Shown in pieces: positions 8,702-22,927 of a stretch of 26,188 bases of DNA. This stretch comes from a virus. The stretch lies in IMG/VR virus record IMGVR_UViG_3300045996_001330, positions 1 to 26,188 of that record. One strand, given 5' to 3'. The notes below the pieces were generated by a model. The model searched no databases and had not been told where the DNA came from. It worked only from the letters and a program-made list of their open reading frames with translations. Position numbers and translations under genes: made by a program. Each line of letters begins with the position of its first letter. The stretch's first letter is position 1.

Positions 8702-9694
8702 ATGCCGGGGCCCAATTTCCAGGTCGAGCCCGGGATGCCGGAGCACGCCAAAGTTCGCCGTCTAGGAAACGAGCGAATTCCTGCGATGGGTCTGTGGACC
8801 ATGTGCGGGGCGTGGGCCGTCGGCAATTCTTCGAACGGTTTCGTGCCCCGTGAAATTGTGGCTCGGTTCAGCACCGACGGGTGTAACGCGTTACAGCTTG
8901 CGGATCTTCTGGTGGGGGTCGGACTGTGGGTTGAGAAGGAGGTTCTTGGTGAGGACGGCTACGTCTTCCACGACTGGGACGACCGCAACGACCCGCTCGG
9001 CGCCGACGAACGCCGCCGTAACGCTACTCGGAAGCGGGTTCAGCGTTACAGGGAGCGTAAGCGAGCCGCTGACCAGCAACAACAGGCTGACGCTGTAACG
9101 CCTGGTAACGCGTTACATGGCGTTACAGAGAGCGTTACTGTAACGCGTTACGGTAACGCGTTACAGCCTTCCCCCCCTGCCTCTCCCCCCCAGACCCCCC
9201 CTCTCCTGACCCCCCCTACGGGGGGGTCCGTAGCTACTCACCATGGATCTCGGGGTGCGACACAGGAGGGGGTTGCAGGGGGGGAGCCGTCGCGCAAGCG
9301 CTCCGGGGGAGGTCCACGGGGAACGCGAATTCCCGAGGACTGGAAGCCGACCGAAGCGGATATCAACTGGTTCCGCGAGAATTGCCCCCACCTCCGTGGC
9401 CGTGGTCGAGAGTTGACCGACGAATTCCGGGACTATTGGTTGGCGCGGGCCGGAAAAGATGCCACGAAGATTGATTGGTCGAAGACCTGGAAAAACCGGA
9501 TGCGGGATCGAGAGGAGCGCGAGCGCAACCGCCAACAGGATCTTGCCGTCCGAGCTACGGCCCGGGGCGGGGGCGCGGTAGGTTCCCCGCCTCGCTCGAC
9601 GACCGACGTGCGCGCCGAAGCTCTCGACCAGTTCCGCTCCCGCCCCTCCGACCCCGACCAAATGATCATCGAGCAGCCCCAGCTCGGTGATTGA
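8702..9694 (+). CDS. Replisome organiser / replication initiation protein
   Basis: 330 residues. The N-terminal 110 residues (PNFQVEPGMPEHAKVRRLG ... AMGLWTMCGAWA ... DRNDPL) have the form of the winged-helix domain of phage replication initiators that bind origin DNA. A basic stretch (RKRVQRYRERKRA) and a Pro/Gly-rich linker (about 125-215) follow. The C-terminal block (RIPEDWKPTEADINWFREN ... FRDYWLAR ... DWSKTWKNRM) matches the C-terminus of such proteins, which usually recruits the helicase loader. The linker DNA carries the palindromic iterons (8883-9164), so the gene contains its own binding sites, as lambda O does. Helicase loader and helicase follow. No clear ribosome site precedes the ATG. 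Confidence 0.8.
   Translation: MPGPNFQVEPGMPEHAKVRRLGNERIPAMGLWTMCGAWAVGNSSNGFVPREIVARFSTDGCNALQLADLLVGVGLWVEKEVLGEDGYVFHDWDDRNDPLGADERRRNATRKRVQRYRERKRAADQQQQADAVTPGNALHGVTESVTVTRYGNALQPSPPASPPQTPPLLTPPTGGSVATHHGSRGATQEGVAGGEPSRKRSGGGPRGTRIPEDWKPTEADINWFRENCPHLRGRGRELTDEFRDYWLARAGKDATKIDWSKTWKNRMRDREERERNRQQDLAVRATARGGGAVGSPPRSTTDVRAEALDQFRSRPSDPDQMIIEQPQLGD
8883..9164. repeat. Iteron array, candidate replication origin
   Basis: Four perfect copies of the 12-base palindrome GTAACGCGTTAC lie at 8883-8894, 9105-9116, 9140-9151 and 9153-9164. Five half-sites lie at 9018-9024, 9043-9049, 9095-9101, 9120-9126 and 9132-9138. The last cluster spans only 70 bases. The repeats lie within the replisome-organiser gene, mostly in its linker region. 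Iterons inside an initiator gene are the lambda O/ori arrangement. Confidence 0.75.
9167..9228. other. Homopyrimidine tract ending in a G/C hairpin
   Basis: Next to the iterons lie about 50 nearly pure pyrimidines with several runs of six or seven C. They end in GACCCCCCC-TAC-GGGGGGGTC (9208-9228), a perfect 9-bp stem with a 3-base loop. Further G-runs follow to about 9290. It could form triplex, G-quadruplex or hairpin DNA near the origin. Confidence 0.7.
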
Positions 9695-9701
9695 TCAACT
9701 T

Positions 9702-9710
9702 GGAGACCCC
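9702..9710 (+). promoter_or_regulatory. Start-associated ribosome site, spaced form
   Basis: GGAGACCCC followed by ACCC and then ATG 9715; the extra four bases make this copy different from the four that abut their start codon. Confidence 0.6.
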
Positions 9711-9714
9711 ACCC

Positions 9715-10113
9715 ATGGCTTTCACCTGGGACGACACGATCGACCTACTCAAGATCATCACTGCGAAGGACCGGCGGACCAGCGGCGAGAGCGACATCCG
9801 GTTCTGGCTCGCCGCCGCCACCGAGGCGGGCTGGCCCAGCCTGGCGTTCGCCGTGGCAGCGGTGATCAAGTTCGCCAACGACAACCCCGGCGTGTGGATC
9901 GAGCCCGGCCACATCACCGCCTACCACCGCAAGATCAAGTCCGAGGTGTTCCAGGCCTGGAACCCCCCGGCCCCGCCCCGGGAGCTGATCGACGACCCCG
10001 AGGGCGCCCAGCGCTGGGCCAACGAGCGCTTCGAGGCCTCGCTGGCCGCCGCTGTTGATCAGTTCACCGGCATCGGCCAGGGCACCGCGCGTCGTCTGGA
10101 GCAGCGCCGATGA
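9715..10113 (+). CDS. Probable helicase loader (G39P-like)
   Basis: 132 residues from ATG 9715, chosen because the start-associated site precedes it; a TTG at 9691 is the alternative. The N-terminal helical layout (WDDTIDLLKIITAKDRR ... IRFWLAAATEAGW ... AFAVAAVIKFANDNPGVWIEPGHITAYHRK) resembles SPP1 G39P-type loaders, in which a work-out aromatic motif and a final IxPxHI segment recur. G39P binds the replicative helicase and keeps it inactive until delivered to the origin. The gene lies between the organiser and the helicase and overlaps the helicase start (ATGA), which is the expected order. The assignment is by pattern and context. Confidence 0.6.
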   Translation: MAFTWDDTIDLLKIITAKDRRTSGESDIRFWLAAATEAGWPSLAFAVAAVIKFANDNPGVWIEPGHITAYHRKIKSEVFQAWNPPAPPRELIDDPEGAQRWANERFEASLAAAVDQFTGIGQGTARRLEQRR

Positions 10114-11042
10114 CCGTGACCGACGAGGAAATCCCGCCGCCGCCCGAGCCCGACCTGCCCCCCGACGAGGAGCCCGAGGACGAGGGCGAAGACCGGGCCA
10201 TCGACCTCGGCCCCCTGCTGGCCAGCCGGTTGCTGGACTACGACCAGCCCATCGAGGTCGGGGCCACCTCCGGGTGGCGCGAGCTGGACGACGTGCTCAA
10301 CGGTGGCCGGGGCCTGCTCGACGGCCAGTACGTCGTCGTGGCCGGTCGGCCCGGCTCCGGAAAGTCGATGTTCATGGTCGAGTGGCTGCGTCGGCTGGCC
10401 GCCTCCGGCGTGGCGTGCATGCTCAACTCGCTGGAGATGTCCCGCGACGAGATCGGCGACCGCATCCTGTCGTCGTCGGCGGGGGTCCGGCTCTCGGCGA
10501 TCACCGGCCACGCGCTGGAGGACTACGAGCGCCAGCGTCTGGCTCAGCACGCCCGGACGCTGGGCGATCTGCCGTTCCGGGTGTCCGACCACCCGATGGT
10601 CGGCCTGAACCGTCTGCGGAGCGATCTGAGGGCGTTCCGGGCCACCCAGGGCGAGGGCATGGCCGTCCTCGCGGTCGACTACGTGCAGTTGATGCTCGCC
10701 TCGGACCCGCGGATGGTCCGTCGGGAGCAGGTGGACGAGTTCTCCCGGGGGTTGAAGATCCTCGCGAAGTCAGAGCGACTTCCCGTGATCGCGAACGCTC
10801 AGCTCAACCGTGGTCCCGAACAGCGGCCGGACGGCAAGCCCGAGGTGTCCGATCTGCGGGAGTCCGGCTCGTTGGAACAGGACCCGGACATCATCCTGCT
10901 GCTGTGGCGCCCGAAAGAGCACCCGAACGAGCTGTGGGTGCAGGTGGCCAAGAACCGAAACGGTCCGGCGAACATCACGGTGCGCCTGTCGTGGCAGCCC
11001 GCGCTGAGTCGGATCGGCAACCTCGACTACATCCATCAGTAG
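10110..11042 (+). CDS. DnaB-type replicative helicase, RecA-like domain only
   Basis: 310 residues. After an acidic, Pro-rich head (1-30) comes the DnaB C-terminal motor: Walker A GRPGSGKS (79-86), NSLEMS with E109, Walker B VLAVDY with D190, sensor ANAQLNRG (Q231) and SDLRESGSLEQDPDIILLLWR. Known DnaB unwinds DNA as a 5'-3' hexamer. Cellular DnaB is about 450 residues with an N-terminal primase-binding domain that is absent here, so primase recruitment must differ or use a host or other phage factor. It is co-translated with the presumed loader. Confidence 0.9.
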   Translation: MTVTDEEIPPPPEPDLPPDEEPEDEGEDRAIDLGPLLASRLLDYDQPIEVGATSGWRELDDVLNGGRGLLDGQYVVVAGRPGSGKSMFMVEWLRRLAASGVACMLNSLEMSRDEIGDRILSSSAGVRLSAITGHALEDYERQRLAQHARTLGDLPFRVSDHPMVGLNRLRSDLRAFRATQGEGMAVLAVDYVQLMLASDPRMVRREQVDEFSRGLKILAKSERLPVIANAQLNRGPEQRPDGKPEVSDLRESGSLEQDPDIILLLWRPKEHPNELWVQVAKNRNGPANITVRLSWQPALSRIGNLDYIHQ

Positions 11043-15044: not shown

Positions 15045-15117
15045 GCCGACTTAGCTCAACGGATAGAGCATCTGACTACGGATCAGAAGGTTGGGGGTTC
15101 GAATCCCTCAGTTGGCG
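15045..15117 (+). tRNA. tRNA-Arg(ACG)
   Basis: Full cloverleaf: acceptor GCCGACT with AGTTGGC, anticodon loop CTACGGA with ACG at 15078-15080, T-loop TTCGAAT. It reads CGU and, after A34 deamination by host TadA, CGC/CGA. 3' CCA is not encoded. Confidence 0.93.
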
Positions 15118-15122
15118 CGCAA

Positions 15123-15195
15123 GCCGGTGTAGCTCAACGGACAGAGCAGCAGCTTCCGAAGCTGAAGGTTCGGGGTTCGAGTCCCTGTGCTGGCG
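15123..15195 (+). tRNA. tRNA-Arg(CCG)
   Basis: Acceptor GCCGGTG with TGCTGGC (wobbles), loop TTCCGAA with CCG at 15156-15158, T-loop TTCGAGT. It reads CGG. G27-A43 is mismatched at the top of the anticodon stem. It starts 5 bases after the previous tRNA. Confidence 0.92.
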
Positions 15196-15396
15196 CGTCA
15201 GGCACCCACGGGTGTCACATGATCAATGACAACTCCATGACATGCTTGCCCCCGGGCCACAGCGCAGCCTTTTCGCCGAGTTCTGCCTGTGGATACGGTT
15301 ATGCCGAACGACCAAGACGAACGTTGCTCCCCTGTGACGTCGGCGGCCGGGGTCCAAGTGTCCACGACCCGTTGAGGTGACTCCGGGATCGTGCAA

Positions 15397-15470
15397 GGCC
15401 CTGTAGCTCAGTAGGTCAGAGCGCCGCCCTGTCACGGCGGAGGCCGCCGGTTCGAGACCGGTCAGGGTCG
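15397..15470 (+). tRNA. tRNA-Asp(GTC)
   Basis: Acceptor GGCCCTG with CAGGGTC, anticodon stem CCGCC/GGCGG, loop CTGTCAC with GTC at 15431-15433. It reads GAC/GAU, which are frequent codons in this acidic-rich proteome. CCA is not encoded. Confidence 0.93.
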
Positions 15471-15566
15471 CAAGGCAACCCCGAACGATGGGGAAGCCTA
15501 GGTTCCACGGTGGGAGTCCGTGCTGGCCGCTGGAGGGGAGACGTCCCCCTGTCGGCCGACCGCCTG

Positions 15567-15639
15567 GTGGACGTAGCTCAGTAGGTAGAGCACCGGGTTG
15601 TGATCCCGGGCGTCGCGGGTTCGATCCCCGTCGTTCACC
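15567..15639 (+). tRNA. tRNA-His(GTG)
   Basis: Acceptor GTGGACG with CGTTCAC, loop TTGTGAT with GTG at 15600-15602. A genomic G at 15566 and discriminator C supply the G-1:C73 pair needed by histidyl-tRNA synthetase, so the mature end is probably 15566. Confidence 0.93.
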
Positions 15640-15707
15640 CGAGGGTTGTCGGTGACTGGCCTGGCCGTGTTCGCACGGTGCGAGGAGAGACTTAGGAACC
15701 GTCATAT

Positions 15708-15782
15708 TGCCGCGTAGCTCAGCCCGGTGAGAGCATTCGCCTGATACGCGAAGGGTCCTTGGTTCAAATCCAAGTGCGGCAA
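15708..15782 (+). tRNA. tRNA-Ile(GAT)
   Basis: Acceptor TGCCGCG with TGCGGCA, anticodon stem TTCGC/GCGAA, loop CTGATAC with GAT at 15743-15745, T-stem CTTGG/CCAAG. It reads AUC/AUU. A CCGTG-TTCG-CACGG hairpin lies upstream at 15665-15678. Confidence 0.92.
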
Positions 15783-15860
15783 CGAGTTCGGGATAGCTAA
15801 GGCGCCAGCGATAAGGGAATCAAGTAGTACCCGGCCGATCCCTTCCCGATAGGCCGGACT

Positions 15861-15932
15861 GGGCGTGTGGCGCAGCGGAAGCGCAGCACTATGACACGGT
15901 GAAGGTCGGTGGTTCGATCCCATCCACGCCCA
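15861..15932 (+). tRNA. tRNA-Val(GAC)
   Basis: Perfect acceptor GGGCGTG/CACGCCC, loop ATGACAC with GAC at 15893-15895. G27-A43 mismatch and a U31-G39 pair weaken the anticodon stem. It reads GUC/GUU. CCA is not encoded. Confidence 0.88.
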
Positions 15933-16029
15933 CGCACCGGCTCACGCGGCAGCGGGGATATGGCTGGACCTGCACCGCACCGAGCCTTTGGATCGCCCGG
16001 CTCCGTGGCGTGTGCACACGGGCACCTCA

Positions 16030-16099
16030 GCCGCATAGCTCAGTGGCAGAGCACTGCCTTCACACGGCAGGTGTCCAAGGTCCGATTCCTTGTGCGGCT
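16030..16099 (+). tRNA. tRNA-Val(CAC)
   Basis: Acceptor GCCGCAT with GTGCGGC, loop TTCACAC with CAC at 16061-16063. The T-loop is TCCGATT, with C in place of the usual T55. The dCTP deaminase GTG follows 11 bases after its 3' end. Confidence 0.88.
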
Positions 16100-16110
16100 A
16101 CGCTCGGCGC

Positions 16111-16677
16111 GTGCTCAGCGACAGCGACATCCTGGACGCGATGGAAGACGGCGACATTGAGATATCGCCGTACGACAAATCGTTGTTGCAGCCCGCATCT
16201 CTTGATGTCCGACTGGGAAAGTCGCTGCGACTTTTCGAGCACAACGATTTCATTGACCCGCAGAACGAAACGAATACGAGGCTGCTGAACTTCGGGGATT
16301 ACTACTACCTCCAGCCCCGGTCGTTCGTGCTGGCCTCCACCTACGAGCGGGTCGCGTTGTCGCCCGGGGTGTCGGCCCGATTCGAAGGCAAGAGTTCGAT
16401 CGGACGGCTAGGCCTGTTCACCCACGTCACCGCCGGGTTCATCGACCCCGGCTTCAAGGGCACCGTGACCCTGGAGCTGTACAACGCCAACAGCAGGCCG
16501 TTCGTGCTGTACGCGGGCATGAAGATCGGGCAGCTCTGCTTCTTCCGGATGGACAGCCAGCCCCGGTACTCCTACGGCGAGAGCCCCTACGGCTCCAGCT
16601 ACCAGGACCAGAGCGGTCCCACCCCGTCGGCCTCTTATCGGAACTTCATCAAGGGGCTGCCGGACACGGCGGCGTAG
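16111..16677 (+). CDS. dcd: dCTP deaminase (DCD/dUTPase superfamily)
   Basis: 188 residues. The Dcd signature is intact: KSSIGRLGL (94-102), THVTAGFIDPGFKGTVTLELYN (104-125) with the catalytic Glu at 122, and a Tyr/Gln C-terminal segment for the triphosphate. Dcd converts dCTP to dUTP, feeding dTTP synthesis. The GTG start lies 11 bases after tRNA-Val with no clear ribosome site, and the TAG stop is bases 8-10 of tRNA-Met, so the gene is wedged into the tRNA transcript and processing at the tRNA end would cut its last codons. Whether the product is mono- or bifunctional (Dcd-Dut) cannot be told here. Confidence 0.9.
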   Translation: MLSDSDILDAMEDGDIEISPYDKSLLQPASLDVRLGKSLRLFEHNDFIDPQNETNTRLLNFGDYYYLQPRSFVLASTYERVALSPGVSARFEGKSSIGRLGLFTHVTAGFIDPGFKGTVTLELYNANSRPFVLYAGMKIGQLCFFRMDSQPRYSYGESPYGSSYQDQSGPTPSASYRNFIKGLPDTAA

Positions 16678-16739
16678 CTCAGTGGCAGAGCGCTCCACTC
16701 ATAATGGAGTCGTCGGTGGTCCGATTCCACCCGTCGCTA
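16668..16739 (+). tRNA. tRNA-Met(CAT), overlapping the dcd gene
   Basis: Acceptor GGCGGCG with CGTCGCT (G-U at 1:72 and 5:68), loop CTCATAA with CAT at 16700-16702, T-loop TCCGATT. The first 10 bases are also the end of dcd. An elongator shape, but Ile2 (lysidine-modified) cannot be excluded from sequence alone. Confidence 0.88.
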
Positions 16740-16833
16740 CCCATCCCCGGAGGTGTCGGTCCGGGGCCCCGCAGTGGAACGCGGGGGTGCGAGACCGGCC
16801 GGTGAGCACGCGCCTGCTCCCGGCTGGTCACCT

Positions 16834-16906
16834 GCCGGTGTCATCTAGTGGCCCAGGATGCCAGCCCCTCAAGCTGGTCACGGGGGTTCGAGTCCCCTCG
16901 CCGGTA
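16834..16906 (+). tRNA. tRNA-Glu(CTC)
   Basis: Acceptor GCCGGTG with CGCCGGT, anticodon stem CCAGC/GCTGG, loop CCCTCAA with CTC at 16868-16870. Position 33 is C instead of the near-universal U. It reads GAG. The whole spacer before it (16745-16829) is three consecutive hairpins. Confidence 0.87.
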
Positions 16907-16910
16907 CTTT

Positions 16911-16983
16911 GGCCCTCTCCTCCAGCGGCCTAGGAGACCGGGTTTTCACCCCGGCAACGCGGGTTCGAATCCCGTGGGGGCTA
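16911..16983 (+). tRNA. tRNA-Glu(TTC)
   Basis: Acceptor GGCCCTC with GGGGGCT, stem CCGGG/CCCGG, loop TTTTCAC with TTC at 16945-16947. It reads GAA/GAG. It starts four bases after tRNA-Glu(CTC), so the pair is likely processed from one precursor. Confidence 0.92.
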
Positions 16984-17007
16984 CGTCGTAAAGGTGCTTG
17001 GAGGGTA

Positions 17008-17036
17008 TTGACCACGTCTTACCCACCAGGTACAGT
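17008..17036 (+). promoter_or_regulatory. Leaderless-type promoter
   Basis: TTGACC and TACAGT with a 17-base spacer; ATG 17044 lies exactly 7 bases after the -10, so transcription should start at or one base before the start codon. Confidence 0.75.
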
Positions 17037-17043
17037 CTCACCC

Positions 17044-17409
17044 ATGGGACGGCCAAAAGGAAGCACCACCAAGACCCCCGAAATCCTCGCCTGGGAGAAG
17101 CCCTACAAGTTGACCAACGCAACCGACTGGACCCAGGTCGCTCAAGACCTCCGCGACGAGCCCGGCCAGTGGGCCGTCGTCCGCACCGCCATCAGCGTGG
17201 GCGCTCTATCCAGCGTCCGGTCCAGCCTCAAGAAGGGCAAGTACCGGGGCTTCGAGGCCAACCAGGGACGCGACTACAACGACCTGGAGTTCGAGGTCGA
17301 CGTCAGCAAGCGCGTGGTCGACGGCAAGTTCGGCCTGTACGTGCGCTGGGTCGGCCCCAACGGCGAGCACCGCAAGGTCGAGCAGAAGCCCCAGAAGGCC
17401 AGCGCGTGA
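17044..17409 (+). CDS. Small DNA-binding-like protein with N-terminal GRPKGS
   Basis: 121 residues. It opens MGRPKGSTTKT, an AT-hook-like minor-groove motif, then a helical middle (WTQVAQDLRDEPGQWAVVRTAISVGALSSVRSSLKKGKYRGF) and a strand-rich acidic-basic end (DLEFEVDVSKRVVDGKFGLYVRWVG). No family is recognised, and DNA binding is inferred from the first residues only. No ribosome site precedes it; the promoter spacing implies a leaderless mRNA. A CCCTC/GAGGG hairpin at 17420-17434 follows. Confidence 0.78.
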   Translation: MGRPKGSTTKTPEILAWEKPYKLTNATDWTQVAQDLRDEPGQWAVVRTAISVGALSSVRSSLKKGKYRGFEANQGRDYNDLEFEVDVSKRVVDGKFGLYVRWVGPNGEHRKVEQKPQKASA

Positions 17410-17449
17410 GCGACTGGAACCCTCGGCCCGAGGGGAGCGTTGTGTAGGT

Positions 17450-17722
17450 ATGACGACCATGGAGACCCCCACCCGTCAGCGCAACGACCGCCCGGCCTAC
17501 AAGCTCACCCTGATCGGGGTCGGCAAGTTCCTCGGCTGGCTCACCCTCGGCATCGTGCTCCACATGGTGATCCGCCTGCTCCTGCCCGGGGCGTTCGCAG
17601 ACGGCGACGTCGGCGAGTTCAACGCGTATGTCGTGACCGGCTTCTACGTGATCCTCACGTGGAACTGGCACCTGGGCGGCAAGGAGATCGCGGCTGCGTG
17701 GCGGAAGGCCAAACGCGGTTGA
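17450..17722 (+). CDS. Small membrane protein
   Basis: 90 residues from ATG 17450 (ATG 17459 is an alternative). Two hydrophobic helices near residues 21-45 and 58-75 with a charged loop between, and a basic C-terminus (AAAWRKAKRG): an in-in hairpin topology. The start region also contains the GGAGACCCC element (17461-17469), here in the coding sequence rather than before a start. Function unknown. tRNA-Lys(TTT) begins 6 bases after its stop. Confidence 0.72.
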   Translation: MTTMETPTRQRNDRPAYKLTLIGVGKFLGWLTLGIVLHMVIRLLLPGAFADGDVGEFNAYVVTGFYVILTWNWHLGGKEIAAAWRKAKRG

Positions 17723-17728
17723 GCGAGG

Positions 17729-17801
17729 GGGCCCGTAGCTCAGTTGGCAGAGCAGCGGACTTTTAATCCGAAGCGCGCGAGATCGAGACTCGCCGGGCCC
17801 A
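17729..17801 (+). tRNA. tRNA-Lys(TTT)
   Basis: Perfect acceptor GGGCCCG/CGGGCCC, loop CTTTTAA with TTT at 17762-17764; G27-A43 mismatch. The T-loop is ATCGAGA (A54). CCA follows the discriminator at 17802-17804, so the 3' end is encoded. Confidence 0.9.
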
Positions 17802-17825
17802 CCACCTGCACAAACGTGGTAGACT
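17797..17825 (+). promoter_or_regulatory. Probable leaderless promoter, weak -35
   Basis: TAGACT at 17820-17825 is 7 bases before ATG 17833. No good -35 is present (GCCCAC at the 17-base position), and it falls on the end of tRNA-Lys. Confidence 0.45.
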
Positions 17826-17832
17826 TTGACTC

Positions 17833-18315
17833 ATGGACACCAAGTGGTGCGGTGGGTGCCAGCGAGATCGCTCAACGGCGGACTTCGCCCGCCGCGCCCG
17901 GTCAAAGGATGGCTTGCAGACCAGGTGTGTGCACTGCACGAAGGATTACAACGCTGCGTATTACCAGCGCACCAAGGATGACCAAGCCGGTAAGCGAAAG
18001 GACATCAAGCAGAAGTCCAGGGAGGCCGCCCGAACCAGGCTGTGGGAGGTGCTGGTTGCATCTCAATGTGCGGACTGCGGGGAGGGCGACCCGCAGGTGT
18101 TGGAGTTCGATCACCAGCACAGCAAGCGAAAGTCGATCTCTCACCTGGTCTACACCGGCCATACCTGGTCAACGATCGAGCGAGAGATCGCAAAGTGCGA
18201 GGTTGTCTGTGCCAACTGTCATCGGCGCAGGACGATCAAGCAGTTTGGGTTCTGGCGAGCAACCATGGACCCGATAAGCGCCGTTAGCTCAGTGGGTAGA
18301 GCAGTTGACTCTTAA
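17833..18315 (+). CDS. HNH-type endonuclease running into tRNA-Lys(CTT)
   Basis: 160 codons. Zinc and catalytic residues: C6xxC9, C32xxC35, C79xxC82, the LEFDH pair (D93, H94) and CANCHRRRT (C126, C129, H130). This is the Cys-rich HNH group found in actinobacterial phages and often mobile. The natural domain ends near residue 140; the frame then continues through the first half of the next tRNA, giving a VSSVGRAVDS tail and using TAA in the tRNA anticodon loop as its stop. The C-terminus therefore looks replaced by, or inserted against, the tRNA. Leaderless-type ATG start. Confidence 0.82.
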   Translation: MDTKWCGGCQRDRSTADFARRARSKDGLQTRCVHCTKDYNAAYYQRTKDDQAGKRKDIKQKSREAARTRLWEVLVASQCADCGEGDPQVLEFDHQHSKRKSISHLVYTGHTWSTIEREIAKCEVVCANCHRRRTIKQFGFWRATMDPISAVSSVGRAVDS

Positions 18316-18350
18316 TCAATTGGTCCGGGGTTCGAATCCCTGACGGCGTA
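18278..18350 (+). tRNA. tRNA-Lys(CTT), overlapping the HNH gene
   Basis: Acceptor GCGCCGT with ACGGCGT, stem GTTGA/TCAAT, loop CTCTTAA with CTT at 18311-18313, T-loop TTCGAAT. Its first 38 bases are also coding, and loop bases 36-38 are the stop codon of the HNH gene. Confidence 0.92.
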
Positions 18351-18352
18351 CT

Positions 18353-18403
18353 CCCCCACGACTCCGTCGGGGTCACGCCCGCGAGACAGCGGGGTCGTGG
18401 GGG
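18353..18403 (+). other. Spacer hairpin between tRNA-Lys and tRNA-Asn
   Basis: CCCCCACGAC pairs perfectly with GTCGTGGGGG (10 bp) and encloses 31 bases with smaller pairings. It fills nearly the whole spacer and may guide precursor processing or be a stable by-product. Confidence 0.65.
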
Positions 18404-18410
18404 CCTGTAA

Positions 18411-18482
18411 TCCCTCGTAGTTCAGCGGCAGAACAATCGGCTGTTAACCGACACGTCCCTGGTTCGATCCCAGGCGAGGGAG
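18411..18482 (+). tRNA. tRNA-Asn(GTT)
   Basis: Perfect acceptor TCCCTCG/CGAGGGA, D-stem GTTC/GAAC, loop CTGTTAA with GTT at 18443-18445, T-stem CCTGG/CCAGG. A27-C43 mismatch. It reads AAC/AAU. Confidence 0.93.
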
Positions 18483-18494
18483 CTGCAAGATCAA

Positions 18495-18568
18495 TGCCGT
18501 CTGGCGCAATTTGGCAGCGCATCTGCGTCTGGTGCAGAGGGTTACAGGTTCGAATCCTGTGGCGGCAG
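18495..18568 (+). tRNA. tRNA-Gln(CTG)
   Basis: Acceptor TGCCGTC with GGCGGCA, D-stem GCGC/GCGC, stem TCTGC/GCAGA, loop GTCTGGT with CTG at 18529-18531. It reads CAG. The stop codon of the opposing gene begins at the next base. Confidence 0.92.
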
Positions 18569-18796
18569 CTATCGCCCTACCTGGGCGGTGACCATCCCGT
18601 GGCGCAGCACCAGCCGCGCCTGGGCGTCCCCGAGGACCCTGGCCAGGCCGTTGTCGTCGGCTACGGGGCCCCGGACGCGCACGCTGATGTACTGGGCTCC
18701 GCAGTCGATGAAGTTGTCGATGGCGAGCCGGAGGCGACGGAGGTCATCACCCTCCAGTGAGTCCACGGTGATGGTGATCGAGATGTTGTGAAGCAT
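18569..18796 (-). CDS. Small protein on the opposite strand within the tRNA region
   Basis: 75 residues (MLHNISITITVDSLEGDDLRRLRLAIDNFIDCGAQYISVRVRG ...). Third codon positions are strongly G/C on this strand only, and GGGGGAAG lies before the ATG, so it is a real gene despite its orientation. Predicted alternating strand-helix-strand, small and soluble; no family recognised. It faces the tRNA transcription, ending at the tRNA-Gln(CTG) boundary. Its transcript would be antisense to the tRNA precursor if it read through. Confidence 0.72.
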   Translation of the reverse strand: MLHNISITITVDSLEGDDLRRLRLAIDNFIDCGAQYISVRVRGPVADDNGLARVLGDAQARLVLRHGMVTAQVGR

Positions 18797-18891
18797 GGGC
18801 TTCCCCCGACCGTGACGATGGTCGCGCCCAAGGGCTAGGGGTGCGGTGGTGCGGCGATGCTAGGGGTCGACCAGGGCTGTGTCGACCTGGA

Positions 18892-18965
18892 TCTCCCGTG
18901 GTGGTAATTAGGCAACCCAACGGGTTTTGGTCCCGTGGTTCTAGGTTCGAATCCTGGCGGGAGAA
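18892..18965 (+). tRNA. tRNA-Gln(TTG)
   Basis: Perfect acceptor TCTCCCG/CGGGAGA, stem ACGGG/CCCGT, loop TTTTGGT with TTG at 18927-18929. The D-stem is weak (3 bp at best). It reads CAA/CAG. A GGTCGAC/GTCGACC hairpin (18865-18887) precedes it. Confidence 0.88.
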
Positions 18966-18984
18966 CGGAAAACGGGGACAAACA

Positions 18985-19290
18985 ATGATCGACATTGCTG
19001 TAGAGGCCATGCGTGCCCGGGTCGAGACCGGCATGGGTCGGCCGCTGATGCGCGAGTGCTACCACGACCGGGACAAGCACCGGATCGCGACGTACAACTA
19101 CGACATCGCTGCCCGCGAGGCAGGCTGGGGCTTCCCCCGCTGGCTGAGCTGGGTGCCGATGCCGTGCGTGCGGTGCTGGCGGTGGCGCCCCGAGGGGCTG
19201 ATGTACCGGGTGAGCGCCGTGGCCCACGACCATGACCACAACCAGTGGCCGCTGCCGCTGTGCAGTGTGTGCTGGCGGGAAGGGAAGTGA
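18985..19290 (+). CDS. Hypothetical protein with two CxxC pairs
   Basis: 101 residues from ATG 18985, 19 bases after tRNA-Gln. A helical N-terminal half is followed by PCVRCWRWRPEGLMYRVSAVAHDHDHNQWPLPLCSVCWREGK: two CxxCW pairs 29 residues apart form a likely zinc ribbon, with a His/Asp-rich loop between. Function unknown. It begins a run of four overlapping small genes to 19888; its TGA overlaps the next GTG. Confidence 0.75.
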   Translation: MIDIAVEAMRARVETGMGRPLMRECYHDRDKHRIATYNYDIAAREAGWGFPRWLSWVPMPCVRCWRWRPEGLMYRVSAVAHDHDHNQWPLPLCSVCWREGK

Positions 19291-19547
19291 CAGGCGTGGA
19301 CGGACGAGGTTTCACTGAGCAGGCTCGCCGTGGCAAGGAAATCGACGCTGCGCTCAATCGGTTGATCTATACCGACCCTGATCAGTGGGCGCGCGAAGAC
19401 ATCATCACGGTGGTGATGGCAGCCGCTGCTCACCGCAGTGTGTTGACGTCGATCAGCGTCGACCCGTACGTAGCCGATCCGGACGAGCCGCCGTGGGTGG
19501 CTCGTTACCGTCAGGCGCTGGCCGACTTCGAGGACGACGATGGGTAA
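19287..19547 (+). CDS. Small acidic hypothetical protein
   Basis: 86 residues, GTG start coupled to the previous stop. Helical, with QARRGKEIDAALNRLIYTDPDQWAREDIITVVMAAAAHRSVL and an acidic tail ending FEDDDG. The layout, repeated short helices with WAxED, resembles small phage proteins of unknown role. No Cys or membrane segment. It overlaps the next gene by 8 bases. Confidence 0.7.
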   Translation: MTGVDGRGFTEQARRGKEIDAALNRLIYTDPDQWAREDIITVVMAAAAHRSVLTSISVDPYVADPDEPPWVARYRQALADFEDDDG

Positions 19548-19713
19548 CGAATTCAAGCGTGTGTGCACCAATGGTGACGAAGAATTGGTGCACACCAGCG
19601 AGCGTCACATCGTGATCATGCAGCGTGGTGAATCCGCCGAGTTGAAGCGACGCACCAACCGGCGCGAGCGACGTGAAGCTCGCGCCGAAGTGCGATCCTC
19701 GGAGGATGTTTGA
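19540..19713 (+). CDS. Small basic hypothetical protein
   Basis: 57 residues (MGNEFKRVCTNGDEELVHTSERHIVIMQRGE ...) ending in a very basic stretch, LKRRTNRRERREARAEV, that could bind RNA or DNA. The ATG lies inside the end of the upstream gene. Codon use is less GC-rich than in neighbours (GAATTC, GAATTG). Function unknown; short, so confidence is moderate. Confidence 0.6.
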   Translation: MGNEFKRVCTNGDEELVHTSERHIVIMQRGESAELKRRTNRRERREARAEVRSSEDV

Positions 19714-19888
19714 GCACAAGTGCGGCTGGCCTTTTCGGTTGCCGCGCTCGTCCACGATCGTCCATTGCAATCTCCCGCTGTGTCACGCGGGGCCGTATTG
19801 CAAGGTCATGACGATGGAGGGTGAGGAGGCGACACGGGCCCCGAGATTTGGGGTGTGTCCCTTGACATCCGACGTCGAAGAGGGTTAG
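19706..19888 (+). CDS. Small Cys-rich hypothetical protein
   Basis: 60 residues. KCGWPFRLPRSSTIVHCNLPLCHAGPYC gives C, C, CH and C ligands spaced like a small zinc fold, similar in style to other Cys/His mini-proteins in this window. GGAGG directly abuts the ATG, which is closer than usual, so the start is uncertain. The stop TAG overlaps the -10 of the next tRNA promoter. Confidence 0.55.
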   Translation: MFEHKCGWPFRLPRSSTIVHCNLPLCHAGPYCKVMTMEGEEATRAPRFGVCPLTSDVEEG

Positions 19889-19891
19889 TCT
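19862..19891 (+). promoter_or_regulatory. Promoter of the second tRNA block
   Basis: TTGACA and TAGTCT with an 18-base spacer. No start codon is at +1. Two strong hairpins (19898-19930 and 19934-19965) lie between it and tRNA-Ala. Confidence 0.6.
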
Positions 19892-19897
19892 GTACCT

Positions 19898-19965
19898 GCT
19901 CCGGTCAACCAGCGCGCGGATCGCCGGAGCACCCCCACCGGGCTCTGCCCCCCAGGCCCGGTGGG
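19898..19965 (+). other. Tandem leader hairpins before tRNA-Ala
   Basis: GCTCCGG/CCGGAGC (7 bp, 19898-19904 with 19924-19930) and CCCACCGGGC/GCCCGGTGGG (10 bp, 19934-19943 with 19956-19965) lie back to back in the 5' leader. Confidence 0.7.
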
Positions 19966-19970
19966 ATTTA

Positions 19971-20039
19971 GGGGGTACCGATTGGTACGGACGGCTGATT
20001 TGCAATCAGCTAGGCGGAGTTCGATTCTCCGTACCTCCA
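19971..20039 (+). tRNA. tRNA-Ala(TGC), shortened D-arm
   Basis: Acceptor GGGGGTA with TACCTCC gives the G3-U70 pair that identifies alanine tRNAs. Anticodon stem GCTGA/TCAGC, loop TTTGCAA with TGC at 20001-20003, T-loop TTCGATT. Only 69 bases: the D-arm is reduced to about CCG/CGG. Reading it as Cys(GCA) breaks the anticodon stem, and a separate Cys tRNA exists at 22838. Confidence 0.82.
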
Positions 20040-20040
20040 C

Positions 20041-20100
20041 TTCCCCCGCACGGGGTTGTTCGGTGTGTGTTGTGTGTTGGTGTGTTCCCGTGCGGGGGAA
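20041..20100 (+). other. Long spacer hairpin with GU-rich loop
   Basis: TTCCCCCGCACGGG pairs perfectly with CCCGTGCGGGGGAA (14 bp). The 32-base loop is almost purely G and T. It fills the spacer from tRNA-Ala to tRNA-Gly. Confidence 0.75.
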
Positions 20101-20105
20101 CCTAA

Positions 20106-20178
20106 GCGGACGTAGCTCAGTTGGTAGAGCACCGGCCTTCCAAGTCGGGTGTCGCGAGTTCGAGACTCGTCGTCCGTT
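20106..20178 (+). tRNA. tRNA-Gly(TCC)
   Basis: Acceptor GCGGACG with CGTCCGT, stem CCGGC/GTCGG, loop CTTCCAA with TCC at 20139-20141, T-loop TTCGAGA. It reads GGA/GGG. Confidence 0.92.
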
Positions 20179-20188
20179 CTGAGACGTT

Positions 20189-20401
20189 GGTGGGGTGCGT
20201 GAACGCGGGTTTTTGCACCTCCTTACCGCCAAGGACTGCCATGACGACGAACCCGGTGGTTGCTCCTTCCCCCACCGGGGAAGCGAGGTGCTGCCTGTCG
20301 CACCTCGGCCAAGGCCCAGTGCTTCCCGTGCTGCAACACGGGGACGCACGCTGTTGCCGCAGCAGTGGTCGTGGTTCCGAGCAGTACCTGCGCACCCCAC
20401 C
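20189..20401 (+). ncRNA. Candidate structured RNA A (multi-hairpin spacer)
   Basis: The 232-base spacer between tRNA-Gly(TCC) and tRNA-Thr(CGT) is closed by an 11-bp perfect stem: GGTGGGGTGCG (20189-20199) with CGCACCCCACC (20391-20401). Inside lie CCCGGTGG/CCACCGGG (20252-20279), CGAGGTGC/GCACCTCG (20284-20307) and CCCGTG/CACGGG (20325-20342). No open frame here looks coding. Likely a stably folded RNA; function unknown. Confidence 0.5.
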
Positions 20402-20410
20402 TACCCCCTC

Positions 20411-20482
20411 GCCCGCTTAGCTCAGAGGTAGAGCACCGCTCTCGTAAAGCGAAGGTCGAGCGTTCGAATCGCTCAGTGGGCT
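20411..20482 (+). tRNA. tRNA-Thr(CGT)
   Basis: Acceptor GCCCGCT with AGTGGGC, loop CTCGTAA with CGT at 20443-20445, T-stem GAGCG/CGCTC. C27-A43 mismatch. It reads ACG. Confidence 0.91.
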
Positions 20483-20497
20483 CCCTGGGAATGTCAG

Positions 20498-20571
20498 GCC
20501 GTGCTGGTCTAATTGGATAAGGCAGCGTCCTTGTAAGGCGCACGATCGGGGTTCGAGCCCCCGGCGCGGCT
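20498..20571 (+). tRNA. tRNA-Thr(TGT)
   Basis: Acceptor GCCGTGC with GCGCGGC, stem GCGTC/GGCGC, loop CTTGTAA with TGT at 20532-20534. It reads ACA/ACG. The next gene starts 20 bases after its end. Confidence 0.92.
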
Positions 20572-20590
20572 CATAGAGAAAGGTCAAGAC

Positions 20591-21025
20591 TTGAAGTCAT
20601 ACGGACACGGATGGGTGTCCCCGTCGGGGGCCGCCGTCGCCGAGCGCAAGCCCTACACGGGCCCGCACCGGCGCTCCGTGGTGCCCATCCGGGATGCTAA
20701 GACTGTGGTCGTGGAGCCACCTGCGCGCACCGTCGCACCCGAGCCGCCGATGGTCCGCACCCCGGACTACGACACCTCCCACGAGGGGGCGGCGAAGGCC
20801 AGCCAGAGCAAGGAGACGGTGCAGCGCAAGCTGCGGGCCGCGTTCTACGGGGCCGGGCCGAAGGGCTTCACCGACGAGGAGGCCGCCGAGGCCGCTGGCC
20901 TGGAGGACACCTGCTACTGGAAGCGCTGCGGTGAGCTGCGCACGGTCGGGGCCATCCAGTACAACGGCGAGAAGAGGAAGGGCCGTAAGGGCGTGGACCG
21001 CAAGGTCAGCGTGTTCGTCTCGTAG
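20591..21025 (+). CDS. Winged-helix DNA-binding protein
   Basis: 144 residues with a TTG start (AAAGG 8 bases upstream); GTG 20615 is an alternative. The first 70 residues are basic and Pro-rich, probably disordered. Residues 78-140 (ETVQRKLRAAF ... GFTDEEAAEAAGLEDTCYWKRCGELRTVGAIQYNGEKRKGRKG) form an HTH with the L-T-D-E-E-A-A helix and an exposed beta wing, common in actinophages. The usual Arg pair in the recognition helix appears as YWKR. It lies between tRNA-Thr(TGT) and tRNA-Thr(GGT), 8 bases before the latter. Likely a regulator; target unknown. Confidence 0.75.
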   Translation: MKSYGHGWVSPSGAAVAERKPYTGPHRRSVVPIRDAKTVVVEPPARTVAPEPPMVRTPDYDTSHEGAAKASQSKETVQRKLRAAFYGAGPKGFTDEEAAEAAGLEDTCYWKRCGELRTVGAIQYNGEKRKGRKGVDRKVSVFVS

Positions 21026-21033
21026 CTAGACCT

Positions 21034-21105
21034 GCCGATGTAGCTCAGTGGTAGAGCACCTACTTGGTAAGTAGGAGGTCCGGGGATCGTTCCCCCGCTT
21101 CGGCT
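21034..21105 (+). tRNA. tRNA-Thr(GGT)
   Basis: Acceptor GCCGATG with CTTCGGC (one U-U mismatch at 6:67), stem CCTAC/GTAGG, loop TTGGTAA with GGT at 21066-21068. The T-loop is ATCGTTC, atypical (A54 and shifted GTT). It reads ACC/ACU. Confidence 0.85.
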
Positions 21106-21106
21106 C

Positions 21107-21231
21107 GGTGAGTGGGTCGCGTTAAAGCGTCTAAGTATCCGTCCCTGGTCGGATCGGTCATGCTGAATTGCGCCAAGGACCACACCATGGGTGACTCCAA
21201 GGCACCCGTGGTCCTGCGCGACCCACTCACT
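21107..21231 (+). ncRNA. Candidate structured RNA B (three-way junction)
   Basis: A 14-bp perfect closing stem, GTGAGTGGGTCGCG (21108-21121) with CGCGACCCACTCAC (21217-21230), encloses two arms: ATCCG/CGGAT (21137-21154, 8-base loop) and GGACCAC/GTGGTCC (21177-21214), which carries an inner GGGTG/CACCC helix and a 5-base bulge. It begins directly after tRNA-Thr(GGT) and ends before the -35 of the next promoter. No coding frame or T-loop is present, so it is not a tRNA or tmRNA. Confidence 0.6.
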
Positions 21232-21235
21232 ACCC

Positions 21236-21265
21236 TTGTGGGGCAGGCCACGCTAGAGGTACAGT
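21236..21265 (+). promoter_or_regulatory. Leaderless-type promoter
   Basis: TTGTGG and TACAGT with an 18-base spacer; ATG 21273 is exactly 7 bases after the -10. Confidence 0.68.
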
Positions 21266-21272
21266 CGTACCC

Positions 21273-21770
21273 ATGACAGCCATCCTGGAGCCCACCGTCG
21301 AGGCCGTGGTGCTCCCCGCCCCGTACGGCCCGTCGGGCTACGTCATCCGTGGTCACACCCAGAGCGGCTACAACGCCGAGCTGTTCTACCGGGTCGCCCA
21401 CCAGATCATGATCGACCCCGAGCGGTGGGACCAGACGTCGTGGGCCGCCCGCACCCCCGACTGCGGCACCACGCACTGCTTCGCAGGCTGGACCGCCGTG
21501 CTCACCGGCCACCAGTTCGAGTGGGCGTACGAGCAGGACGACGACGACTGGGAGGAGTCCGACATCCTGGTCGGCAACGGGCACGTGGCCCAGGTCGCGG
21601 CTCGTCTCCTCGGGCTCAACGACGACGAGGCCAGCGAGCTGTTCGAGCACACCATGGGCCACGGCGCCGAGCAGACCGACCACCTGTGGGACTCCATCGA
21701 GTGGGTCACCGGCGGCGAGGTCACCTACCTCGGCTACCGGGACTGGCTGGCTGTGCATGAGCTGCACTGA
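21273..21770 (+). CDS. Hypothetical protein with CGTTHCFAGW motif
   Basis: 165 residues, leaderless-type start. The centre has TPDCGTTHCFAGWTAVLTG, a Cys/His motif seen in small uncharacterised phage and actinobacterial proteins, flanked by Tyr/Trp-rich segments (ELFYRVAHQIMIDPERWDQTSWAA) and an acidic patch (EQDDDDWEESD). The C-terminal half is helical (AQVAARLLGLNDDEASELFEHTMGHG). I know of no assigned function. It overlaps the next gene by 14 bases. Confidence 0.75.
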   Translation: MTAILEPTVEAVVLPAPYGPSGYVIRGHTQSGYNAELFYRVAHQIMIDPERWDQTSWAARTPDCGTTHCFAGWTAVLTGHQFEWAYEQDDDDWEESDILVGNGHVAQVAARLLGLNDDEASELFEHTMGHGAEQTDHLWDSIEWVTGGEVTYLGYRDWLAVHELH

Positions 21771-22392
21771 GTACATCACCGAGTTCATCCTGATCGACGG
21801 CCAGCGCTACCCAATCTGCGTGCCGAAGCGTTCGGACATCACCCCCAAGAAGGGGGGTGGTGTCTCCCAGGAGGCCAAGGACAAGCAGAAGCAGCAGCAG
21901 CGCGACGAGCGGAAGCAGCAGAAGCAGCAAGCGGCCACGGCGCGCCAGAGACCGGGGGGCCGGGCCACCACGTGCACTGTCACGGAGCCCGCGCCCCCAG
22001 TCTCGAAGGCGCCTCGTGCACCGATCAACCTGCGCTGGGTGGCAGCCGCCGTCGCCGCGATCTTCGTGGTCACCGTGGTTACGACCTACGCCGCCGCCAT
22101 CGCCACGGCCCTCACCTACCTGCTGCTCGCCGCCGTCGTCCTGGGTGGACTGCGGCTGCTGTGGTCCCTGCGGGACGCCCTGCCGGAGATCAACTGGAGC
22201 TACATCCACACCTGGCTCGACCACCGACGCCAGATCAACCACAAGCGGGCCCAGTGGCTCGCCAGAGTCGAGGAGGACAAGCAGCCCATCGCGCTGCCCC
22301 CGCCCCGGCCGTCGCACATGCACGACACGCTCATGCAGGGCTGGGTCCACGGGCCCAGCCACTGGGATGAGCGCGAGCACCAGAAGCGGTAG
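21757..22392 (+). CDS. Membrane protein with Lys/Gln-rich N-terminal region
   Basis: 211 residues. After a 30-residue folded-looking head (TEYITEFILIDGQRYPICVPKR) comes a charged stretch (KDKQKQQQRDERKQQKQQAA), then two hydrophobic helices at about 94-113 and 117-132 (WVAAAVAAIFVVTVVTTYAAA first), then a cytosolic tail with His and Pro. No family recognised. A CCTCGG/CCGAGG hairpin follows the stop, before tRNA-Gly(GCC). Confidence 0.75.
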   Translation: MSCTEYITEFILIDGQRYPICVPKRSDITPKKGGGVSQEAKDKQKQQQRDERKQQKQQAATARQRPGGRATTCTVTEPAPPVSKAPRAPINLRWVAAAVAAIFVVTVVTTYAAAIATALTYLLLAAVVLGGLRLLWSLRDALPEINWSYIHTWLDHRRQINHKRAQWLARVEEDKQPIALPPPRPSHMHDTLMQGWVHGPSHWDEREHQKR

Positions 22393-22398
22393 CAGTAC

Positions 22399-22416
22399 CC
22401 TCGGCTCCGGCCGAGG
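22399..22416 (+). terminator. Short hairpin after the membrane gene
   Basis: CCTCGG and CCGAGG pair across CTCCGG. No T-run; tRNA-Gly(GCC) starts four bases later, so this may be a processing boundary instead of a terminator. Confidence 0.35.
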
Positions 22417-22419
22417 CCT

Positions 22420-22491
22420 GTCCTCGTAGTTGAATGGCTACAACGACACCTTGCCAAGGTGTAGGTGCGGGTTCGATTCCCGCCGGGGGCT
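22420..22491 (+). tRNA. tRNA-Gly(GCC)
   Basis: Acceptor GTCCTCG with CGGGGGC, D-stem GTTG/CAAC, stem ACACC/GGTGT, loop TTGCCAA with GCC at 22453-22455. CCA is encoded at 22492-22494. tRNA-Tyr starts one base after that. Confidence 0.92.
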
Positions 22492-22495
22492 CCAC

Positions 22496-22576
22496 GCGTC
22501 GGACGTGCCGGGTGGCACAGGGCGGCTGTAACCCGCCTCCTCTTGGGGATGCCAGGTTCGAGTCCTGGTCGGCGCA
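22496..22576 (+). tRNA. tRNA-Tyr(GTA), long variable arm
   Basis: Class II tRNA, 81 bases: acceptor GCGTCGG with TCGGCGC, D-arm GTGCC/GGCAC, anticodon stem GGCGG/CCGCC, loop CTGTAAC with GTA at 22528-22530, then a 14-base variable arm and T-stem CCAGG/CCTGG. It reads UAC/UAU. Confidence 0.88.
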
Positions 22577-22583
22577 CGTGACA

Positions 22584-22832
22584 ATGTCCGATATGAGGAC
22601 GATTGCCGACGTTCTGAACAGTCACCCACGCAATGACGTGGATGCGTTCTGGCTGGTCCTGGCCGGTTTTTTCCTGATCGCGCTCCCGGCTGACGTCGCC
22701 GACATCTGGGCGATCTACGCGGGTTATGTGATCTGGGCGGGCTACACGTTCCACCGGTGGTACGCCCGGCTGCGCAGCATCGAGGCGTGGCCTCCGCAGG
22801 CGGAGAGCACCAGCGAGTGGCCCAGCAGGTAG
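22584..22832 (+). CDS. Small membrane protein
   Basis: 82 residues from ATG 22584 (GTG 22578 would add two). Two hydrophobic segments, about residues 19-36 and 40-57 (FWLVLAGFFLIALPADVADIW first), with polar ends. No ribosome site, and it starts 8 bases after tRNA-Tyr, like other protein genes here. Function unknown. tRNA-Cys follows its stop by 6 bases. Confidence 0.65.
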   Translation: MSDMRTIADVLNSHPRNDVDAFWLVLAGFFLIALPADVADIWAIYAGYVIWAGYTFHRWYARLRSIEAWPPQAESTSEWPSR

Positions 22833-22837
22833 GACAT

Positions 22838-22911
22838 GGCCGGTTGGCCGAGTGGCGAAGGCACACGCCTGCAAAGCGTGACAACCACGGGTTCGAGTCC
22901 CGTACCGGCCT
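22838..22911 (+). tRNA. tRNA-Cys(GCA)
   Basis: Perfect acceptor GGCCGGT/ACCGGCC, stem CACGC/GCGTG, loop CTGCAAA with GCA at 22871-22873, discriminator T as expected for cysteine. CCA is encoded at 22912-22914. Last tRNA in the window. Confidence 0.93.
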
Positions 22912-22927
22912 CCACGAGGAGATGATC

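Follow-up and report, generated by a model that had tools for sequence, protein, structure and literature searches.

A palindromic repeat array inside a phage replication initiator gene and the bZIP-like basic helix proposed to read it

The window analysed here is the whole of IMG/VR virus record IMGVR_UViG_3300045996_001330, a stretch of 26,188 bases. It contains on its plus strand a replication initiator gene (8702-9694, 330 amino acids), identified as an open reading frame with a match to phrog_2447, whose 'replication initiation protein' profile fits residues 5-285 with an E-value of 3.3e-31. The gene is preceded by a WhiB-like gene and followed, again on the plus strand, by a small open reading frame (9691-10113) and then by the gene of a DnaB_C-type replicative helicase (10110-11042; PF03796, E 1.5e-58). 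The small open reading frame had been taken for a helicase loader; this function is suggested by its position alone, and its PHROG matches are all to families of unknown function. For the helicase, the C-terminal ATPase domain (PF03796) alone was detected, with no N-terminal domain found. Elsewhere in the window, 23 tRNA genes serving many amino acids are clustered at 15045-22914, and the overlapping open reading frames of the '..STDRASDYGSEGWGFESL..' type in this region are artefacts of the tRNA genes.

An AlphaFold2 model of the initiator, built with 32 sequences, predicts in this order a winged-helix-like domain, a long helix (residues 99-131, encoded on the plus strand at 8996-9094; pLDDT about 88-97 over most of the helix), a disordered linker (residues 139-201, plus strand, 9116-9304; mostly pLDDT under 50) and a folded C-terminal domain (residues 207-289, plus strand, 9320-9568). 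The long helix carries a basic segment, RKRVQRYRERKR (residues 110-121), which we refer to as the reader and number from its invariant arginine, such that in the window protein R117 is position 0, Y116 position -1 and V113 position -4. Foldseek searches with the window protein returned weak matches only, of the winged-helix/ArsR type, and there are no solved structures similar by sequence to this protein or to a MazE-like protein of the family discussed further below.

The initiator gene contains a dense array of short repeats at 8883-9164. The four perfect GTAACGCGTTAC palindromes and five GCGTTAC half-sites described there by the sequence-only reading are confirmed, as is the crowding of three of the four palindromes into 60 bases. 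In 5' to 3' direction the array consists of palindrome 1 (8883-8894), single half-sites GTAACGC at 9018-9024 (minus strand), GCGTTAC at 9043-9049 (plus strand; R115-Y116 of the reader are specified by the codons CGT-TAC in it) and GTAACGC at 9095-9101 (minus strand), palindrome 2 (9105-9116), two further single GCGTTAC half-sites at 9120-9126 and 9132-9138 (both plus strand), palindrome 3 (9140-9151) and palindrome 4 (9153-9164). The half-site at 9132 and palindrome 3 together give GTTAC-T-GTAAC, and palindromes 3 and 4 give GTTAC-G-GTAAC. All 13 GTTAC/GTAAC pentamers of the initiator gene, as compared to about 0.5 expected from the surrounding density, belong to the 13 copies of the 7-mer GCGTTAC/GTAACGC, and outside the array no place in the 26,188-base record matches GTAACGCGTTAC with fewer than three mismatches. 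When the codons of the gene were shuffled synonymously 3000 times, the palindrome turned up 0.05 times on average and at most twice, against the four copies observed, and the pentamer at most 11 times, against 13. The array is not due to chance.

The sites occupy all three reading frames and are accordingly written as VTRY, GNAL, AVT and so forth in the protein, from which it follows that the repeated unit is the DNA and not one peptide. It is true that V-T, N-A and R-Y words are common to linkers of this kind, as would be expected if selection acting on the linker peptide, or codon bias, had produced the repeats incidentally. However, one DNA motif yields these words in different frames and in both orientations, the synonymous shuffles of the window gene fail to recreate the array, and AlphaFold2 shows no fold in the linker; we consider the probability of such a by-product to be negligible. 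The array had been assigned to the linker of the initiator gene, and for most sites this is correct. Palindrome 1, which on the AlphaFold2 model lies in the coding part of the winged-helix domain (residues 61-64), is the exception. The half-sites at 9018 and 9045 (the latter counted from its GTTAC) fall within the DNA coding for the basic helix, and all remaining sites are inside or bordering the DNA of the disordered linker.

Directly after the array the plus strand continues into a C-rich, strand-asymmetric tract (9165-9219; GC skew of -0.77 at 9160-9219, 72% GC). This tract forms the flank of the window iterons, and an AT-rich unwinding element adjoining them is absent. A C-rich tract was likewise located 3' of the iterons in 13 of 13 related GTTAC genes having both, strong tracts of this kind being present in only a minority of all genes. 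In the GTTAC-class genes, the half-site is directly preceded by C in 88%, and gaps between neighbours are 6-7 for direct, 2-3 for everted and 0-1 or 10-11 for convergent sites, so that neighbouring sites are often about one turn apart. The initial 200 bases of the linker in these genes contain 18.4 half-sites per kb, which fall in several reading frames, as against 1.1 per kb in the N-terminal and 0.4 per kb in the C-terminal part.

A repeat cluster in the middle of an initiator gene and over a disordered linker, here with one palindrome outside the linker, is the layout of an intragenic origin, and we think it likely that a phage replication origin resides inside the initiator gene and that the array is the part of it to which the initiator binds. 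The placement had been compared to that in phage lambda, and the comparison is borne out by the initiator gene itself, by repeats that lie mostly over its variable linker and by the DnaB-type helicase gene downstream. Intragenic origins have been proven for lambda O, SPP1 gene 38 and pSK41 rep. The iterons of lambda O are longer, are read by the N-terminal domain of O and have an AT-rich tract after them. The window differs in each of these respects, with short GTTAC half-sites, a bZIP-like helix as their likely reader and a C-rich tract. Shared by both are iterons in mid-initiator gene and helicase-loading genes downstream (PMC6022878). Similarly, gp38 of SPP1 binds direct repeats in its own gene 38 (oriL), beside a DNA-unwinding element, and works together with a helicase loader and a helicase (PMC6316719). 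SPP1 differs from the window by its AT-rich element and by oriR, a further origin. In pSK41 the Rep boxes are central in the rep gene and the linker encoded there is dispensable (PMC5703833). The pSK41 Rep protein, however, binds via an N-terminal RepA_N domain, whereas the Pfam RepA_N model (PF06970) has no match in the window initiator at E 0.1. Since it is the AT-rich element more than the layout that defines the lambda and SPP1 origins, our claim is limited to the window array working like them.

Could the repeats instead be operators, through which the initiator blocks or tunes transcription of its own gene or the helicase genes, with the origin elsewhere? The same half-sites are found before MazE-like antitoxin genes and near small genes with the same basic motif, and there repression would be natural. 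The window array, in contrast, is spread over 280 bases in the middle of the gene and is followed by the skewed tract, no copy is present in front of the gene, and comparable linker arrays, of the density given above, recur in initiators of several PHROG families. We therefore regard operators as an unlikely explanation, and the autoregulation by the encoded protein that had been proposed earlier is left without direct support by the lack of array copies in front of the gene.

If the array is part of an origin, which element of the initiator would read it? We compared reader residues and repeat in about 160 related genes. The phrog_9474-type set comprises 65 genes, of which 61 were collected by N-terminal patterns alone in order to avoid picking genes by their repeat, and four came from the query alignment. 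In this set the repeat follows the residue at position -1, with means per linker of 3.9 GTTAC for aromatic residues, 4.5 GTGAC for Ser, 5.3 GACGTCC for acidic residues and 2.4 CACGTGC for Ala, and each of these four classes beat 5000 label permutations (p below 1/5000 each). The rules were then carried over without change to a replication set of 76 unselected genes from the window's own family. Aromatic residues again went with GTTAC (2.6 versus 0.25-0.57 in the other classes) and Ser again with GTGAC (4.3 versus 0.25-2.0); the Ala rule (CACGTGC) showed no replication among these 76 genes. The acid and Ala rules derive from few genes, some of them related to one another, and the classes beyond aromatic and Ser are leads.

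Exceptions to the aromatic rule suggested that a second position, -4, be brought in. With this refinement, which was devised after the data had been seen, three or more GTTAC are present in 26 of the 35 pooled genes that combine an aromatic residue at -1 with Q, V or A at -4, as compared to none of six with an aromatic and another residue at -4 and one of 100 without an aromatic (Fisher 4e-19). Pooled genes with Ser at -1 have three or more GTGAC in 16 of 19 cases versus 16 of 122 others (8e-10), GTGAC not being exclusive to Ser as Q and R at -1 also accompany it. The window, with V at -4, Y at -1 and GTTAC repeats, obeys the rule. Some genes have no GTTAC in the linker despite the right residues (among them L084, L129, L143, L153 and L295) or a single one (L135, L201 and L229), suggesting that their origin lies elsewhere or that further residues matter. 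On the best trees, 18 phylogenetically independent pairs (8 + 10) were concordant for aromatic residue and GTTAC and none was opposite, these pairs being drawn over all branches by our own greedy pairing on N-terminal-domain trees that have short alignments and weak support and whose starred branches leave 2-3 pairs, too few to test.

The cleanest single case is provided by the staphylococcal-type initiators, in which reader and sites switch together: 17 with the segment NxLRQQRYRE have 4-6 GTTAC each, and five with NRLRKxxQR have 4 GTGAC at the same place. Moreover, relatives that are devoid of GTTAC mostly have a changed basic helix, rather than the conserved protein lacking its repeats that had been named as the adverse finding for the origin, and many of them hold another repeat at the same place. 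This covariation of basic helix and repeat sequence strongly supports the notion that the encoded protein would bind the repeats. Sequence alone leaves room for a second binder, and a host protein or another phage DNA-binding protein might in principle read the repeats in place of the initiator. This is very unlikely though, because in two families, and again in the staphylococcal-type set, the repeat changes along with a pair of initiator residues, and because phages whose hosts are as different as actinobacteria, proteobacteria, firmicutes and spirochaetes, with no obvious common factor, have the same repeat together with the same reader motif.

The same sites were found in other genomes by a search for two GTAACGCGTTAC within 30 bases, which was carried out on viral contigs and on one genome per bacterial or archaeal species and gave 29 and 40 stretches, respectively. 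The palindrome is scarce, with 2-6 copies per genome in eight bacterial genomes of 1.8-7.7 Mb. A first group of the paired stretches lies in the linkers of initiators whose phages or prophages have widely differing hosts, including actinobacteria (L020/L066), proteobacteria, firmicutes, Chthonomonadales (L051) and Treponema (L069), and the N-terminal domains of these initiators belong to phrog_2447, 9474, 2509, 3926, PF09681, PF14297 or none of these. The second group is located beside small genes and includes a GRPRK..SNAEKQ..YRKRR family as well as MazE-like antitoxins, along with some unassigned stretches. Many of the proteins at these sites have in common a basic segment that can be written [N/T/D]-x2-R-[Q/V]-x2-[Y/H/F/W]-R-x-[R/K]. 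Most initiators bind through winged helices, and linked residues could hitch-hike; it is thus conceivable that the winged-helix domain reads the iterons while the basic helix adds non-specific affinity and both merely travel together. Yet the pairing of motif and site recurs behind phrog_2447, 9474, 2509, PF09681, PF14297 and unclassified N-terminal domains, it switches within a family of otherwise alike N-terminal domains, and it is also seen in MazE-like antitoxins, which are without that domain. We hold reading by the winged helix to be quite improbable and favour the basic helix as the reader.

As a probe of viral contigs the QRYRERK motif alone was rejected, its 21 matches being mostly to unrelated proteins. 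Three of the matched proteins are initiator-like, and an array accompanies L088 alone, so that the short motif by itself is insufficient. Searches of whole genomes for phrog_2447 and PF09681 gave few usable loci, and a small Pseudomonas protein used as query had no match in 185 genomes except in its genome of origin. Literature matches for GTAACGCGTTAC were to the 3'-5' strand of an NFIL3 test oligonucleotide and to a paper on taxol regulation.

In the MazE-like antitoxins (PF11455), segments of the type RVxxHRxRLR occur, in which position -4 is V and position -1 is mostly H or Y. Their genes were gathered via the Pfam model and not via the site, and were scored where the motif was located. 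A perfect GTTACATGTAAC is situated 14-41 bases before the likely start in 10 of 13 genes with V at -4, in two phyla, the 13 including two copies from one genome; one of the remaining genes has the site with one mismatch and two have none. Both MazE-like genes with a residue other than V at -4 lack GTTACATGTAAC upstream. R occupies -1 in two of the 13, and of these one has the site and the other does not. As the family was first noticed through GTAACGCGTTAC pairs, this test is independent in genes and site form and not in family. Literature matches for GTTACATGTAAC were to tobacco small-RNA papers only.

The choice of residues recalls that of eukaryotic bZIP factors. The half-site of AP-1 is TGAC. 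AP-1 proteins use the signature NxxAAxxCR, and Yap1, with NxxAQxxFR, prefers TT at the ends of TTAC half-sites (PMC8450079). In the phage proteins TTAC accompanies R..[QV]..[YHFW]R and TGAC accompanies ..SR, the same bases as for the equivalent residues of Yap1 and AP-1; the xxAC half-site follows the residue before the conserved arginine, TTAC for aromatic and TGAC for Ser, in covariation only, and this was replicated. When isolated phage basic segments were compared with Pfam, bZIP_1 or bZIP_2 was the best match in three of six, below the curated cut-off (E 0.0018-0.45). With the bZIP signature N-x2-[SAQ]2-x2-[CSFY]-R-x-[RK] many members agree in register and key residues and deviate at -5, and the window has T at -8. 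Unlike bZIP proteins, the phage readers have Arg at -5 in place of the first signature Ala, a winged-helix domain in front and no zipper, and their half-sites are also everted and arranged as direct repeats. No leucine heptad follows the window helix, which is predicted to end at residue 131 in ...KRAADQQQQADA, and for lack of a zipper we do not file the initiator as a bZIP protein. Nevertheless, its reader may read DNA like one.

We found no description of bZIP-like phage initiators in the open-access literature, and as far as this literature was searched the correspondence between reader and site is new. Another bacterial protein that has been likened to bZIP factors, by its authors, is the repressor RptR, which reads a short palindrome with paired helices (PMC12255303). 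RptR differs in its site, TAGCTA, and in having no role in replication, and no correspondence between residue and site class was apparent there (PMC12255303). Taken together, we somewhat favour the view that phages and bacteria have a widespread, zipper-less bZIP-like helix with a residue-to-base correspondence (TTAC where Q/V is combined with an aromatic residue, TGAC where Ser is present, and probably more), which is used in initiators as a mobile cassette with its own sites and in MazE-like antitoxins and other small proteins with promoter sites, and that bZIP-type reading either arose twice with the same residue choices or predates eukaryotes.

How, then, might the window origin work? We propose that GTTAC half-sites, usually as CGTTAC, are read by the basic α-helix that immediately follows the winged-helix domain, and that several initiator molecules would load side by side on half-sites of mixed orientation about one helical turn apart. 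The C-rich strand-asymmetric tract would then be opened or kept single-stranded, and the C-terminal domain together with the products of the next two genes would recruit the DnaB-type helicase. That the protein physically binds, that the strands open at the C-rich tract, that the helicase is loaded there and that replication starts at the array are all inferred. Reader and sites would move and change together as one cassette because they adjoin on the same DNA.

By writing their own binding sites into their genes, phage initiators can make thousands of genomes a natural archive of protein-DNA specificity. Should the correspondence hold, it could become possible to predict origins and initiator-site pairs from sequence in many phages, and the compact DNA-reading helix familiar from eukaryotic bZIP factors would be seen to operate in phages and bacteria. 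The correspondence also predicts operators for a toxin-antitoxin family, and it could account simply for the otherwise puzzling V-T, N-A and R-Y words in the linkers of phage initiators.

Several other combinations of linker module and repeat were observed among the initiators. Those with Met at -4 (RERMR..; L233, L248, L261, L271, L282, L283, L294 and L304) have GCGAAC/CCGAAC repeats in the linker, and phrog_9474-type members with RSRRRRAAA basic regions (L122, L123, L174, L175, L191 and L207) have GACCAGA/AGAGTAG linker repeats; each may represent a further class. Four phrog_9474-type initiators (L136, L162, L166 and L187) contain in their linker, along with few or no iterons, an HNH-like zinc module (CRYCGKTVNWKDRRGPDGGTYDH), which is possibly another kind of reader or a captured piece of an endonuclease. 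In L165, L272, L274, L290 and L298, where the GTTAC array is absent, the N-terminal domain is followed by a GNHxRWH...C..C module that is a candidate reader. Finally, the initiator-like gene of Saccharomonospora phage PIS 136 (L010, 1451-2863) carries in its linker eight CCGGAATTC half-sites, a palindromic array that is quite unlike GTTAC in sequence and is written as TRNSG peptide repeats.
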